From positions 62,001 through 126,000 of the forward strand of contig DAIDGQ010000035.1 of assembly GCA_027452215.1 (NCBI GenBank): 64,000 nucleotides of DNA, in the 5' to 3' direction. Positions 39,544-44,239 of this stretch are shown here, piece after piece. Position 1 is the first letter of the stretch, and each line of letters opens with the position of its first letter. Source of the stretch: Granulicella sp. (GTDB lineage Bacteria > Acidobacteriota > Terriglobia > Terriglobales > Acidobacteriaceae). The notes below the pieces were generated by a model, which ran no database searches, was not told the DNA's origin, and worked only from the letters and a program-made list of their open reading frames with translations. The position numbers and the translations under genes are program-made.

Positions 39544-39900
39544 CTATCGGTACTTGTCGCCCATAACGCGCATAAGTTTTTCGGCAAGATCAGCTGCAGA
39601 GACAGTGTATGAGCCGTCGTCTAGGGCCGCCTTAATGTCTGCAATCTTTTTCCGCCTCAGTGGAGAGTGGCGCATTGCAACATCAAGCGACTTACTCCTC
39701 CAGGCAGAAGGGATCTCCGGTCCGTTAGCAGACTTTGAACGGCCGCTAACGGACACCTTTCTCACCGTTCCCTGGCGGAAGAGCGGATCATCGTCCTCCC
39801 AGACGGTGATCCGGCCGACATTCGATACACTCCAGGAGTCCCAAATATTCATTAGGCATATAACCCTCATGGGTTCTATCGGCGCATCCGGAAAATACAT
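39544..39900 (-). CDS. FlgM-like anti-sigma-28 factor
   Basis: The last ~45 residues, SPLRRKKIADIKAALDDGSY then TVSAADLAEKLMRVM, match the sigma-28-binding end of FlgM (R..KV..IK..I..G.Y.V....IA.KM). It directly follows the sigma-28-type gene (17 bp), which supports the call. FlgM holds sigma-28 inactive until it is exported by the hook-basal body. The N-terminal ~70 residues are unlike usual FlgM, and the start is unclear: ATGs exist at 39900, 39870 and 39852 and none has a good ribosome binding site. Confidence 0.7.
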   Translation of the reverse strand: MYFPDAPIEPMRVICLMNIWDSWSVSNVGRITVWEDDDPLFRQGTVRKVSVSGRSKSANGPEIPSAWRSKSLDVAMRHSPLRRKKIADIKAALDDGSYTVSAADLAEKLMRVMGDKYR

Positions 39901-39917: not shown

Positions 39918-40856
39918 TTATCTGGATGCAGCCGCCTGGAGCGGACGACCCATTGAGGCGGTGGGATTGGCCCGAACTGCCTGAAAACCCTCGAGGGAAC
40001 AGCGGAGATGAAGTACAGCCGACGAATGGATTTGTGACACGCGCGACTCAACGACCCCAAGGGTCAGGCCAATCTCCCGCATGGTCAGCTCCTCGTAGTA
40101 ATAGAGCGTGAGGACCATGCGCTCCTTTTCCGGAAGACTTTCGATCGCATCGATCATGTGCTGACGCATTTCGCCCTGTAAGCAGCGGAAGAGCGGGTCG
40201 TCCTCTGGAGAGCCTGCCACGTAGGCGAGTTCGTCTTCGGTTGAGTCTTCCGTGCGCTCAGGGTTGAGGCTGCCGATCTCCAGACCCTTAAGATCTCCTA
40301 AGAGAATCTGGTATTCGTTCAGGTCAAGCTTCATCTGCTTGGCGATCTCCGGCTCGGTCGGAGTCCGGCGCAATGTCTGCGTCAAGACTTGAATCGCGTC
40401 CTGCACGGCGCGGCCCTTGCGGCGGAGCTCGCGGGGACTCCAGTCGAGAATGCGGAGCGAATCGAGGATAGACCCGCGAATGCGAAACTGGGCGTAGCTC
40501 TTGAACTGCACCTGCTTGGTGTGATCGAACTTACTGAAGGCATCGATCAGGCCGACAACGCCTGCTGAGACGAGGTCTTCAAGCTCAACGTGCTGGGGCA
40601 GCCTCTCGTGGATGCGGCGAGCCAGATAGCGCACCGTGGGGAGATGCTCAAGCAGAAGCCGATCACGTTCCGGGCCGGCAAGCGACTTGGGAACCGATCG
40701 CTTCGCCGCGGGCGTTCCTTTACGCGGAGCAACATAGTCATATTGAGCCAGATCAGACTTCGGAAGCGTCTGATCCATCATTATGCTCAACGCAGCCTGC
40801 TGTGCTTCATGAATGGGTGTTGCGGATCGCACATCGCTCTTCGGGGTCATGGCCAC
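39918..40856 (-). CDS. fliA: RNA polymerase sigma factor FliA/WhiG type (sigma-28)
   Basis: A 312-residue sigma-70 family factor without region 1.1. Region 2 is HLPTVRYLARRIHERLPQHV then LEDLVSAGVVGLIDAFSKFD and FKSYAQFRIRGSILDSLR. The DWSPRELRRKGR block after region 2 is the FliA/WhiG hallmark. Region 3 has PTEPEIAKQMKLDLNEYQ, and region 4 has SLPEKERMVLTLYYYEELTM plus an HTH. The N-terminal ~65 residues are an extra, poorly conserved extension. FliA directs late flagellar genes. The start is GTG at 40856 (GAGGA 5 bases upstream) or ATG at 40850. It has its own candidate sigma-54 promoter. Confidence 0.93.
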   Translation of the reverse strand: MAMTPKSDVRSATPIHEAQQAALSIMMDQTLPKSDLAQYDYVAPRKGTPAAKRSVPKSLAGPERDRLLLEHLPTVRYLARRIHERLPQHVELEDLVSAGVVGLIDAFSKFDHTKQVQFKSYAQFRIRGSILDSLRILDWSPRELRRKGRAVQDAIQVLTQTLRRTPTEPEIAKQMKLDLNEYQILLGDLKGLEIGSLNPERTEDSTEDELAYVAGSPEDDPLFRCLQGEMRQHMIDAIESLPEKERMVLTLYYYEELTMREIGLTLGVVESRVSQIHSSAVLHLRCSLEGFQAVRANPTASMGRPLQAAASR

Positions 40857-40914: not shown

Positions 40915-40932
40915 GGGCACGAGGAAGGCCAA
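40915..40932 (-). promoter_or_regulatory. Sigma-54 (RpoN) promoter candidate for fliA
   Basis: On the minus strand the sequence TTGGCCTTCCTCGTGCCC has GG and GC dinucleotides separated by exactly 10 bases, as at -24/-12 of RpoN promoters (consensus TTGGCAC-N5-TTGC). It matches the TTGGC and TGC parts and is ~60 bp from the fliA start. The adjacent upstream gene encodes a GAFTGA-type sigma-54 activator. Confidence 0.55.
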
Positions 40933-41042: not shown

Positions 41043-42320
41043 CTACTTTCGGACTGCGCGACGCAGGCGAATATCTTCGGCTCGAATCGTCGGAGAATCC
41101 TCGGCGAGGATAGAGGCACGCTCGAGGACGTGAGCCAACTCGCGAACATTGCCAGGCCAATCGTGAACGCATAGCTTGTCGAGAGCTGCGCCGGAGAGCA
41201 TCTTGCGGGGCGAGGATTTTCCCATAAGTGCGAGGAAGTATTCACACAACAGGGCGATATCCTCGGTACGCTCGCGCAGTGGCGGCACGTCGATGGGAAA
41301 CACCGCCAGGCGGTGATAGAGATCAAGGCGGAAGCTGCCCTCGGTAGCGCGCTTCTCCAACTGCTGATGCGTTGCAGCGATCACGCGTACATCGACTTTC
41401 AGGGTGTCGTTATCGCCAACGCGCTGCAGTTCCCCGCTCTCCAAAAAGCGCAGCATCTTGGCCTGCAATGCGATGGGCATCTCGCCGATTTCGTCGAGGA
41501 AGAGGGTTCCACCGTGCGCAGCTTCGATGCGGCCGGTGCGGGACTGGACGGCACCCGTGAAGGCGCCGCGGGTGTGTCCGAACAGCTCTGCTTCAAGTAG
41601 GGCCTCTGGGATGGCTGCGCAGTTGAGCACAACGAATGGCTTAGAGGACCGAGTGCTGAGGCGATGCAAGGCACGAGCCACGACCTCTTTACCAGTTCCT
41701 GTCTCGCCTTCGATCAACACGGTCGCCTTACGCGGCGCAACCAACCGGATGATGCGTGCCAGTTCAAGCATGCTGGCGCTCTCACCCACCATCTCATCAA
41801 TCAAAAGCGACGGCACGATTACGGAGGGCGGTTGGGGGGAGATGCGCGGCGACTCGAATTGCACAGCGTCGAGCACTGGCAACGGATATAGGGACTGTCG
41901 CACCGTGCCGGCTGTCGGCTCAGAGGCCGTTGTGACGTCCCCAGAGACCTCGTCCGGGGACGGGGTTGTTCTTTTGGCCGCACCGACGGCCTCCCGAAGA
42001 GCATGCAGCAGTTCATGGCGGCGCGGGCTGCGAGTGCCACCGACAATGGGGTCGCCATCGACACGCAACACATCCATTCCTGGATACATGGCGCCGATCT
42101 GCTCCGCAAACTCCATCACCTCAAGATCGGGAAGCCAGTGATCGAGGAGGAGAGCTTCCGTAGGATGGTCTTCAAGCTGTGCGATGGCCTCAGCACCGCC
42201 GCGCGCCTCACGCACATGCCAGCGGAGTCCGCTCAAGCTGTGATGAAGTCGCTGGCGCAATGCAGGATCCGCGCTGGCCAACACTACCGTTCTGTCGTAG
42301 CTCATCGTTTGCGATGCCAT
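41043..42320 (-). CDS. Sigma-54-dependent activator with degenerate receiver and no DNA-binding domain
   Basis: A 425-residue bacterial enhancer-binding-type protein. The N-terminal receiver-like domain keeps the acceptor aspartate (D60, EALLLDHWLPD). It has lost the first acidic pair (VVLASADPAL instead of V.DDDPAL) and the conserved lysine near the end. The AAA+ domain is complete: GETGTGKE (205-212), GAFTGA (252-257) for sigma-54 contact, GGTLFLDEIGE, and FRLDLYHRL. The protein ends at RAEDIRLRRAVRK, right after the AAA+ lid, where other NtrC-type proteins continue into a Fis-type helix-turn-helix. It resembles Helicobacter FlgR in plan. Start ATG with AGGAAC 8 bases upstream. Confidence 0.93.
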   Translation of the reverse strand: MASQTMSYDRTVVLASADPALRQRLHHSLSGLRWHVREARGGAEAIAQLEDHPTEALLLDHWLPDLEVMEFAEQIGAMYPGMDVLRVDGDPIVGGTRSPRRHELLHALREAVGAAKRTTPSPDEVSGDVTTASEPTAGTVRQSLYPLPVLDAVQFESPRISPQPPSVIVPSLLIDEMVGESASMLELARIIRLVAPRKATVLIEGETGTGKEVVARALHRLSTRSSKPFVVLNCAAIPEALLEAELFGHTRGAFTGAVQSRTGRIEAAHGGTLFLDEIGEMPIALQAKMLRFLESGELQRVGDNDTLKVDVRVIAATHQQLEKRATEGSFRLDLYHRLAVFPIDVPPLRERTEDIALLCEYFLALMGKSSPRKMLSGAALDKLCVHDWPGNVRELAHVLERASILAEDSPTIRAEDIRLRRAVRK

Positions 42321-42351: not shown

Positions 42352-42582
42352 TTACTTAACGACGGCGTCTTCGCAAATCAGGCGCTGACGCATGCGGTCA
42401 ATCACCGCAAACATTCTCAGTGTCTCCTCGAGGCCGCCGTCCACGGCCTCGAGCAACGCCTCTTCATTGCCCATCATCCGCCCGATTTCAAGGCGGCATT
42501 GCAGGGCCGTGAGCGGCTGACAAAGCTCGTGGAGATCTGCATGTAACTGATTCAAAACATCGTCCCGTTCCGGTAAGCTCAT
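42352..42582 (-). CDS. Stand-alone histidine phosphoacceptor (DHp/HisKA-like) protein
   Basis: A 76-residue protein consisting of little more than a two-helix hairpin. The first helix holds an H-box, ADLHELCQPLTALQCRLEIG, with the candidate phosphorylated histidine H18. The second helix is AVDGGLEETLRMFAVIDRMR, matching the end of HisKA. There is no sensor region and no HATPase domain. GGAG lies 6 bases before the ATG. It sits 9 bp after the response regulator and 31 bp before the sigma-54 activator, so all three likely share an mRNA. It could be a phosphotransfer protein, a kinase scaffold or a degenerate kinase fragment. Confidence 0.75.
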   Translation of the reverse strand: MSLPERDDVLNQLHADLHELCQPLTALQCRLEIGRMMGNEEALLEAVDGGLEETLRMFAVIDRMRQRLICEDAVVK

Positions 42583-42591
42583 GTCCGTCTC

Positions 42592-43380
42592 CTAGGCTCC
42601 ACGGGCAAGTTCAAGCGCATCCGGAGGATCCTGCTGAGCAGACTGGGATGTCGTTTTGCTGTGGAGTGAGGGCTGTTCGAAGCGTGGTATCCGGCGCTTA
42701 TCGCGAAGCCGATAGCCTGATCCCCGAACGGTCTCGATGACCGAACTCGCCAACTCGTCCTCGGGATGTGCGGCGGCGAGCTTCTTGCGCAAATACGTAA
42801 TATAAACATCGATGATGTTGGTGCCGCACTCCGGGGTCGAGTGCCAGACCTGGGTAAGCAACTCCGCCCGAGAAGAACAAACGCCGCGCCGCAGCATCAG
42901 AGATTCCATCAAAGTGAACTCCTTGGCGGTGAGGTCGATAGGTACCCCTTCGTAGCTCACCGTGCGTTCCATGCGATTCATTTCGACACCGCCGAAACGC
43001 AGAACCGGATCGGCGAAGCGCTCTCGGCGCCGGAGGAGAGCACGGCAGCGGGCCATCAACTCATGGAAGCTGAAAGGCTTGAGCACGAAGTCGTCGGCGC
43101 CCAGATCAAGACAGCGGACGCGTTCCTGAACCAGGCTCCGACCGGTGAGCACCAGAACGCCCGTTCCCGGGAAATCCGTCCTCATCGCCACTAGGACGGA
43201 TGTGCCATCGCGACGGGGTAGTCCCAAATCCAATACCATCAAATCTGGCGGCTGTAGGGCGGCCATCTCGAGGGCGGTATCGCCATCGACCGCCCACTCC
43301 ACGTCGTGCCCCTCAAGCATCAGGCCCTTCCGGAGAAATACCCCTAACGAGGGATCATCTTCAACAACCAAGACACGCAT
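42592..43380 (-). CDS. OmpR-family DNA-binding response regulator
   Basis: A 262-residue two-domain regulator. The receiver has the acidic pair in VLVVEDDPSLG, the phosphorylatable Asp in LMVLDLGLPRRDGTSVL, the Thr/Ser in VLVLTGRS and the Lys in FVLKPFSFHEL. The OmpR winged helix has TVSYEGVPIDLTAKEFTLME and NIIDVYITYLRKKL, then VRGSGYRL. A ~35-residue polar tail follows. It is the first gene of an operon with the stand-alone histidine protein and the sigma-54 activator. No full-length cognate kinase is nearby. Confidence 0.95.
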   Translation of the reverse strand: MRVLVVEDDPSLGVFLRKGLMLEGHDVEWAVDGDTALEMAALQPPDLMVLDLGLPRRDGTSVLVAMRTDFPGTGVLVLTGRSLVQERVRCLDLGADDFVLKPFSFHELMARCRALLRRRERFADPVLRFGGVEMNRMERTVSYEGVPIDLTAKEFTLMESLMLRRGVCSSRAELLTQVWHSTPECGTNIIDVYITYLRKKLAAAHPEDELASSVIETVRGSGYRLRDKRRIPRFEQPSLHSKTTSQSAQQDPPDALELARGA

Positions 43381-43633: not shown

Positions 43634-44239
43634 ATGGCAATGACGCGGCGTCAAAAAGAAGTCATCGACTTTCTCTCCAGCTTCACGACCAGGAATGGCT
43701 ACTCTCCGTCTTACGAAGAGATTGCAGCCGGACTTGGACTCAATTCATTGGCCACCGTGCACAAGCACGTTACGAATTTGCAGAGCAAGGGGCTGTTGCA
43801 AAGGGAGCATAACCGGAGCCGGTCCATTGATGTGATTCCACAGCGACCGACCCGCAAGATTACGGACCGTTTGCCGCTACTTGGCCGCATCGCCGCCGGT
43901 CGGCCGGTCGAAGCGATTGAAACGGCAGAGACAATCTCACTGGGCGACATTATTGGGAATCGCGAGGTGTATGCATTGGAAGTTCGGGGCGACTCCATGC
44001 GAGACGAGCACATCGTGTCGGGCGATTATGTACTGGTGGAGCGGACCAACATGGCGAACGAAGGGGAGATCGTGGTTGCGCTAGTCAACGGAAGCGATGC
44101 AACCCTCAAGAGGTTCTATCGTGAGGGAAACCTGATACGACTGCAGCCTTCGAATACCGAAATGCAACCGATCTATGCTCCTGCAGGCAATGTCAGCATC
44201 CAGGGCAAGGTGTTAGGGATGCTTCGTAAGTACGCCTGA
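43634..44239 (+). CDS. lexA: SOS repressor LexA
   Basis: A 201-residue repressor/protease. The N-terminal winged helix starts TRRQKEVIDFLSSFTTRNGY and has the recognition region LGLNSLATVHKHVTNLQSKG. The self-cleavage site is A88-G89 in GRIAAGRPVEA. The Ser-Lys dyad is S121 (VRGDSMRDEHI) and K159 (DATLKRFY). All residues for RecA-stimulated autocleavage are present. Full length for the family. The start ATG at 43634 has a second ATG two codons later. No strong Shine-Dalgarno is visible. Confidence 0.96.
   Translation: MAMTRRQKEVIDFLSSFTTRNGYSPSYEEIAAGLGLNSLATVHKHVTNLQSKGLLQREHNRSRSIDVIPQRPTRKITDRLPLLGRIAAGRPVEAIETAETISLGDIIGNREVYALEVRGDSMRDEHIVSGDYVLVERTNMANEGEIVVALVNGSDATLKRFYREGNLIRLQPSNTEMQPIYAPAGNVSIQGKVLGMLRKYA

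Follow-up and report, generated by a model that had tools for sequence, protein, structure and literature searches.

Histidine kinases need an ATP-binding (CA) domain for autophosphorylation, and Spo0B retains an ATPase-like domain. Together with ChpT and PhyT, which likewise keep such a domain, Spo0B is a precedent for degenerate kinases that act as phosphotransferases, and an origin by kinase degeneration was suspected for PhyT by its authors, according to excerpts of these reports (PMC5898713, PMC3433190). In archaea, a 'possible incomplete histidine kinase' type of protein has been described, histidine kinase-like and with a conserved His in a HisKA domain that is not accompanied by HATPase; in the available part of that source, these HisKA-only proteins carry PAS/GAF or other sensors (PMC5847659). 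Other relevant groups are the Hpt proteins (HPt, YPD1), which are monomeric four-helix bundles, and the FixL-type kinases, which have sensor and ATPase domains and an HELNQPL H-box with Q–P at H+4/+5. With regard to flagellar control, FleSR and FlrBC are two-component systems with a sigma-54 activator. The FlgR protein of H. pylori is an enhancer-independent sigma-54 activator, going by a title cited in PMC9449129.

Here we analyse a 76-residue protein encoded in a 64,000-nucleotide stretch of DNA from Granulicella sp., referred to below as the window. The protein resembles Spo0B, ChpT and PhyT in carrying a phosphoacceptor His on a kinase-type dimerisation/histidine-phosphotransfer (DHp) domain and in lacking a functional ATPase, the lack of autokinase activity being predicted from its sequence. 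Unlike ChpT and PhyT, it has lost the ATPase-like domain altogether, while its longer relatives still have a C-terminal region. It is similar to Hpt proteins in size and in its presumed role as a phosphotransfer node, but it is a two-helix hairpin that would have to dimerise. The FixL-type box is shared, whereas the FixL sensor and ATPase domains are both missing, and in contrast to the archaeal proteins the DHp domain stands alone, in an operon with a response regulator (RR) and a sigma-54 activator. As with FlgS/FlgR and FleSR/FlrBC, the activator is encoded beside flagellar genes, but its receiver is degenerate and an OmpR-type RR and the DHp protein take the place of the kinase. Neither a DHp-only phosphotransfer protein nor an RR–DHp–sigma-54 operon turned up as described in our search of the open-access literature, which is weak evidence of absence. 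The protein is related to the degenerate-kinase phosphotransferases without being a member of that group, as it has no ATPase-like domain and its phosphotransfer activity is putative.

A protein consisting of a DHp hairpin

The open reading frame begins with ATG, and the predicted phosphoacceptor H18 lies inside the motif HELCQPLTAL. HisKA (PF00512) was the sole Pfam match at E ≤ 10 (18.8 bits, E = 0.0017, residues 18–66); the score is below the curated cut-off of 26.9, and the assignment is made firmer by the relatives, since 20 of 30 aligned members of the DHp family match HisKA at E ≤ 0.01. Neither a HATPase nor a sensor domain was found in the protein with Pfam at E ≤ 10, and the N, G1 and G2 boxes of the CA domain are absent, as judged from sequence and Pfam. 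The reading frame, the HisKA match and the relatives bear out an earlier sequence-only reading, which had proposed a 76-residue DHp protein with an H-box and without sensor or ATPase domain, DHp-like rather than Hpt, situated between an OmpR-type regulator and a sigma-54 activator; this position is confirmed by the Pfam assignments of both flanks. A normal Hpt identity was rejected, as Pfam gave no Hpt match up to E = 10, a search in which HMMER filters drop most matches above about 0.1.

An AlphaFold2 model, calculated from a 3-sequence alignment (mean pLDDT 89, pTM 0.65), is a two-helix hairpin with helices at residues 3–20, 22–37 and 40–75 and a break at residue 21, beside Q22–P23. In the alignment and the model, the H-box phosphoacceptor His, the Pro kink and the second helix are all present. 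Foldseek comparison of the model with the PDB returned nothing at E ≤ 0.001, with HK853 complexes among the top weak matches, which is not unexpected for a short hairpin. The solved structures closest in sequence are FixL chimeras (E = 1.5e-4).

On the minus strand, the gene order is OmpR-type RR, DHp protein, sigma-54 activator, FliA-type sigma factor and FlgM-like protein (Table 1). Only 9 nt separate the RR stop from the DHp start, and 31 nt lie between the DHp and sigma-54 genes; because of this short spacing, the three genes are likely on one transcript. The FliA-type and FlgM-like genes that follow on the same strand were absent from the sequence-only reading, as were the degenerate receiver and missing DNA-binding domain of the activator.

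Table 1. Features of the locus, with positions counted from the first letter of the window.
Feature	Position	Strand	Basis
OmpR-family response regulator (Response_reg + Trans_reg_C), winged-helix output	42592..43380	(-)	Pfam
Stand-alone DHp (HisKA-type) hairpin protein, 76 aa, putative phosphoacceptor H18	42352..42582	(-)	ORF, Pfam, relatives, AlphaFold2
Sigma-54 AAA+ activator, degenerate receiver	41043..42320	(-)	Pfam, alignment
Sigma-54 type -24/-12 element TTGG-N9-TGC, between activator gene and fliA	40917..40932	(-)	motif scan
FliA/WhiG-family sigma factor (sigma-28 type)	39918..40856	(-)	Pfam, profile
FlgM-like anti-sigma-28 factor	39544..39900	(-)	PF04316 above cut-off; TIGR03824 below cut-off
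LexA, divergent neighbour upstream, marker of syntenic locus	43634..44239	(+)	Pfam, synteny

The slot behind the response regulator in related genomes

When 200 genomes of the family were searched with the DHp protein, 50 were matched at E ≤ 0.01, and 40 of the 52 matches listed were taken as loci. The RR was matched in at least 196 of the 200 at E ≤ 1e-30. A further 80 loci were taken at RR matches down to approximately 1e-50, leaving out some of comparable strength (in G024, G037, G056, G063, G100 and G169, and second copies such as G045:C13). With two others, this gives 122 loci, the window excluded.

The slot after the RR gene was found in four states. In 40 of the 122 loci, the DHp domain is followed by a C-terminal region of 130–177 residues past the DHp match (the long form), and a sigma-54 gene was recognised alongside in 21. 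The DHp domain stands alone (the short form) in 22 loci, 21 of them with the sigma-54 gene; the remaining one, L066, is a contig-end artefact. No DHp protein is present in 57, of which 48 have the sigma-54 gene, and three have an ordinary kinase, behind more distant RRs of 39–41% identity. The 80 RR-anchored loci split into 57 without DHp, 21 long, one short (L142) and one kinase. All short rows other than L142 were recruited through similarity to the DHp protein of the window, which biases them towards a kept H-box, and the RR-anchored loci offset this in part.

No H motif was found within 900 nt after the RR in any of the 57 loci lacking DHp. Where these have a sigma-54 gene (48 loci), at most 224 nt separate it from the RR gene; in the other nine, what comes after the RR is fliA (4) or unrelated-looking reading frames (5), and this group may include RRs that are different paralogues. 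The four loci with FliA directly after the RR, and neither a DHp nor a sigma-54 gene between, are L111, L121, L133 and L146. Conservation of the operon in Acidobacteriota, a point raised by the sequence-only reading, was upheld by the same gene order in other genomes. Profile searches for the DHp domain at E ≤ 1e-4 matched 149 of 250 genomes class-wide and 92 of 297 phylum-wide, many of these being ordinary kinases by length.

Conserved residues and selection

A non-conserved H18 had been named beforehand as a possible refutation, and the residue proved to be conserved: all 62 DHp rows next to an RR (22 short, 40 long) have the His together with Gln at H+4 and Pro at H+5, the latter two corresponding to Q22 and P23 of the window protein. 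Thr at H+7 is found in 22/22 short and 35/40 long rows, and the invariant residues of a 30-row alignment are H18, Q22, P23, T25 and R65. An acidic residue at H+1 (E19 in the window) occurs in 14/22 short and 6/40 long rows, the non-acidic residues in short rows being G (4), A (2), M (1) and R (1). Excerpts of one study of CrdS and three further HisKA kinases state that kinase activity depended on the H+1 acid and phosphatase activity on the H+4 Asn/Thr, each residue being dispensable for the other activity, and that CrdS N375Q gave no measurable phosphatase activity (PMC3510030). With the His kept, the H+1 acid variable and Gln at H+4, the residues specific to the kinase and phosphatase reactions are therefore not kept in this family.

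It could be argued that the hairpin dephosphorylates the OmpR RR. FixL-type kinases naturally carry Gln at H+4 and are reported as phosphatases, so the H+4 residue is not decisive against such an activity. HisKA DHp domains do have phosphatase activity, without need of the kinase acid in the case of CrdS, but the kinases tested need Asn or Thr at H+4, where all 62 rows have the residue that left CrdS with no measurable phosphatase activity, and from the part of that work available we hold a phosphatase role to be quite improbable (PMC3510030).

Selection was assessed by dN/dS (Nei–Gojobori) for the DHp gene, with the RR of the same pair for comparison. Against its nearest relative, L031 (71% identity), the window gene has dN 0.19 and dS 1.8, which is near saturation, giving a ratio of 0.11. 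Values for DHp and RR, respectively, were 0.11 and 0.05 in L036–L039, 0.095 and 0.14 in L064–L065, 0.13 and 0.18 in L058–L064, 0.23 and 0.16 in L042–L043, 0.35 and 0.18 in L042–L045, and 0.55 and 0.07 in L035–L043. The L037–L038 pair shows zero amino-acid changes in DHp at dS 0.29, and the window–L032 and L031–L032 pairs have saturated dS and thus no ratio. In short, the ratio is at most 0.13 in five of the eight pairs that give one and above 0.2 in three, indicating that the DHp gene is under purifying selection, though with uneven constraint across pairs. As the ratio of 0.11 is joined by the same gene order in other genomes, the reading frame is more than a chance one, and we conclude on these comparative grounds that it is a real gene. 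A truncation artefact or frameshift was rejected, given that the DHp-only form recurs and is under selection.

We see very little likelihood that the protein is a vestige on the way to loss. The gene is absent from 48 RR–sigma-54 operons, the series of forms resembles decay, and the three higher ratios point the same way. However, the five low ratios do not, no H-less form was seen among the loci examined, and all 22 short rows have the H, Q, P and T residues.

Probable erosion of the ATPase region

A home-made profile, derived from the ordinary kinases L062 and L069, gave weak ATPase-like matches in the C-terminal region of the long form in 10 of 40 rows; the remaining 30 are assigned by the position and length of the region. 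A regular expression for the ATP boxes detected the N-box in none of the 40 long rows, G1 in two, G2 in none and all three in none, compared to two, three, three and two, respectively, of three ordinary kinases, although this test is crude and misses some real boxes, such as the G2 visible in L206/L207. A Pfam scan of eight long forms recognised HATPase_c only in L053 (33.2 bits, above cut-off). Elsewhere in the class, L203 keeps the N and G1 boxes and matches the home-made profile at 2e-25. The sequence-only reading had considered that homologues with an intact ATPase domain in the same position would make the short protein a truncation. A C-terminal region is indeed present there and in part ATPase-like, but an intact ATPase was not detected by the crude box test. 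As no long form showed all three boxes in this test, the 76-residue form seems to derive from a pseudokinase by reduction, and not from an active kinase by recent truncation.

In an RR tree made by a quick method, 21 DHp-only rows including the window form a group with L054 and L056, both long, with support of 94 (unstarred) for these 23 rows; the inner fork is open, so the region may have been lost in this group once or more often. The row of L142 (genome G032) falls among long rows, at an open fork with support of 80, and is a probable separate loss of the C-terminal region. Slot states are strongly clustered on the tree, requiring 13 changes against a mean of 54.3 for shuffled labels. The ATPase-like region may have been lost more than once, in the main group and separately in G032. 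The series of forms suggests that a kinase lost first its catalytic activity and afterwards the domain itself, with selection continuing to act on the phosphoacceptor.

The partner regulators

The RR has an intact active site in the window (E7, D8, D9, D51, T79 and K101), as it does in nearly all rows of every slot class; its acidic pair is partly lost in 2 of 42 rows of the main no-DHp clade. The sigma-54 activator of the window has intact Walker A/B and GAFTGA motifs, with GAFTGA kept in the inspected rows and one row, L122, gapped at Walker A. Its receiver is degenerate: the Pfam match stops at profile position 74 of 111, and in all 88 rows of this protein the receiver lacks the acidic pair but retains the Asp. 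By a crude test, 8 of 88 have a Lys-Pro or Lys-Ala string after the Asp, and the lysine has likely been lost. Pfam found no C-terminal DNA-binding domain in the window protein, and since no row extends more than 40 residues past its end, these proteins lack the usual one.

Without an acidic pair in any of the 88 rows, the sigma-54 protein should be a poor phosphoryl acceptor, which did not support the idea in the sequence-only reading of phosphotransfer to both receivers, notwithstanding the conserved Asp. Given also the missing DNA-binding domain, the DHp protein is more likely to have the OmpR RR as its phosphate partner, and the latter is a credible one. This class of sigma-54 activator, in which the receiver is degenerate and a DNA-binding domain is missing, is itself conserved (41043–42320 in the window and loci L031–L153), and the OmpR neighbour is one candidate for the tether that brings it to promoters.

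The main alternative, which we consider possible though rather unlikely, is that H18 remains unphosphorylated and is part of a docking surface, the hairpin dimer binding the OmpR RR and perhaps also the degenerate receiver of the activator. The RR would then be held inactive, or a DNA-bound RR would be bridged to an activator unable to bind DNA. A bridge is sensible for a protein that keeps a receiver-like domain with its Asp and has neither acidic pair nor DNA-binding domain. Moreover, PhyT both sequesters PhyR and transfers phosphate, and its H341A variant no longer kept PhyR at the membrane, making a docking His possible, as far as the excerpted text describes (PMC5898713). On the other hand, pure docking needs no invariant His by itself, and here an unchanging His stands next to a residue that varies; operons without DHp also keep an activator of this kind. 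Docking or folding alone could account for the conservation of the His and Gln–Pro, and phosphotransfer and docking roles may coexist.

We also considered whether the RR docking surface is relaxed where DHp has been lost, and rejected this: entropy at six alpha-1 positions, assumed to be suitable after the HK853–RR468 complex, was lower, not higher, in the no-DHp clade (0.22, 42 rows) than in short rows (0.44, 20 rows).

Flagellar context and a sigma-54-type element

Behind the operon in G150 come flgB, fliF, fliG and other flagellar genes as far as flhB, with names read from translations except for FlhA and FliF, which were assigned by profile. FlhA was found by profile in 93 of the 200 family genomes. 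Among the 19 genomes with a DHp-only locus (excluding those of the window and L066), FlhA shares a contig with the RR at a distance of no more than 20 kb in 14 and is located elsewhere in two (G064, G182), while profiles found neither FlhA nor FliF in three (G116, G188, G095). The flagellar cluster of the window genome is on another contig. Two FliA-type sigma factors score above the family cut-off in that genome, at 39918–40856 of the window and at G000:C45:162371-163030, the second of which sits in the flagellar cluster; G174, of the same genus, also has two.

The motif TTGG-N9-TGC was present in the sense orientation within 400 nt after the sigma-54 gene in 16/22 DHp-only (window included), 9/47 no-DHp and 3/19 long loci, a post hoc count because the motif was picked after viewing the aligned intergenic stretches. 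The controls gave 1, 1 and 0 for antisense and means of 0.65, 0.95 and 0.45 for shuffled sequence, respectively. In the 16 DHp-only loci that have it, this sigma-54-type element precedes fliA or flgB. The window copy is weak alone, with 7 of 12 consensus positions, but its position is conserved, and G188 has a perfect element before fliA.

Three genomes depart from the flagellar pattern. G116 (L034) and G188 (L219), both given as 100% complete, lack FlhA and FliF yet keep RR–DHp–sigma-54–FliA, and G188 also has FlgM. G095 (L064) lacks FlhA and FliF, keeps RR–DHp–sigma-54, and has no FliA above the family cut-off. In these three, the module may drive something other than flagella.

A proposed phosphotransfer role

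Without a CA domain, the 76-residue protein cannot be expected to autophosphorylate, by inference from histidine kinases. The kept His, the loss of kinase- and phosphatase-specific residues, the intact RR and the degenerate partner receiver together fit phosphotransfer or phosphoryl buffering with the OmpR RR, the analogy being with PhyT, Spo0B and ChpT (PMC5898713, PMC3433190). Our best overall explanation, to which we assign a probability of roughly 0.5, is that the protein is a remnant of a FixL-type kinase serving as a minimal dimeric histidine phosphotransferase, of the type of Spo0B, ChpT and PhyT, for the OmpR RR in flagellar control. The gene, its conservation, the series of forms, the kept His, the state of both regulators, the sigma-54-type element and the flagellar context are read from sequence; the steps that follow are suggested by them. 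A FixL-type (HELNQP box) kinase once paired with the OmpR regulator would have lost its sensor, then ATPase activity and then the entire ATPase-like domain, probably in this order, retaining the DHp hairpin as a separate and presumably dimeric protein. The hairpin would dock on the OmpR RR, and H18 would take a phosphoryl group and exchange it with D51, the transfer and its direction being predictions. It might either import phosphate from a putative donor kinase encoded elsewhere or hold and buffer phosphate. The result would set how the RR acts with the sigma-54 activator on the next flagellar gene, which is fliA here and flgB in relatives. Some findings weigh against this explanation: the 57 of 122 loci that have the RR without DHp (48 with the sigma-54 gene) indicate that it is dispensable in sister lineages, where the alpha-1 surface of the RR is no less conserved, and DHp is under weaker constraint than the RR in the L042–L043, L042–L045 and L035–L043 pairs.

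With respect to the source of phosphate, G032 has a kinase gene with its own H-box and, as read from sequence, a PAS-like start, directly upstream of RR–DHp–sigma-54–flgB, and its product is a candidate phosphodonor. The same gene lends something to the idea of a split kinase, in which a separate CA-bearing kinase phosphorylates H18 in trans. Split kinases exist (PMC3591291), among them Hik36–Hik43, where the His-bearing half has an HPt domain (PMC7656254), both as given in partial views of these sources. The H+1 acid needed for autophosphorylation is not conserved in the DHp rows, however (PMC3510030, in excerpt). In G150, an H-box was seen upstream of the ATPase box in 23 of 30 HATPase loci examined, out of 48 matches, by a crude inspection by eye that left seven unassigned; no clear CA-only partner emerged from this regular-expression search of 30 of the 48 matches. 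We therefore judge a split kinase to be improbable. In the long-form operons L118, L123, L124, L132, L052, L060, L061, L138, L201, L204 and L205, two further genes come after the sigma-54 gene. The first is matched by the home-made kinase ATPase profile, and the second encodes another sigma-54 regulator, in which a receiver was matched; these two are a possible phosphodonor pair.

Significance

Degenerate kinases such as ChpT and PhyT indicate that erosion of a kinase can give rise to a phosphotransfer protein, but both retain a dead ATPase domain. In the present case, a series of forms across related genomes surrounds one conserved RR and ends in a protein of about 75 residues. We regard it as slightly short of an even chance that evolution has here reduced a kinase to nothing but its phosphoacceptor hairpin, which persists on its own as a dimeric phosphotransfer protein of two helices, and that the intermediates (near-intact ATPase, degenerate ATPase, none, and gene lost) are still living in one bacterial class. 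The function of a lone DHp domain is directly testable here, as long, DHp-only and no-DHp forms offer natural comparisons for the same RR. For the Acidobacteriota, the locus points to an unusual flagellar switch, in which an OmpR RR is combined with a sigma-54 activator that has neither a normal receiver nor a DNA-binding domain.
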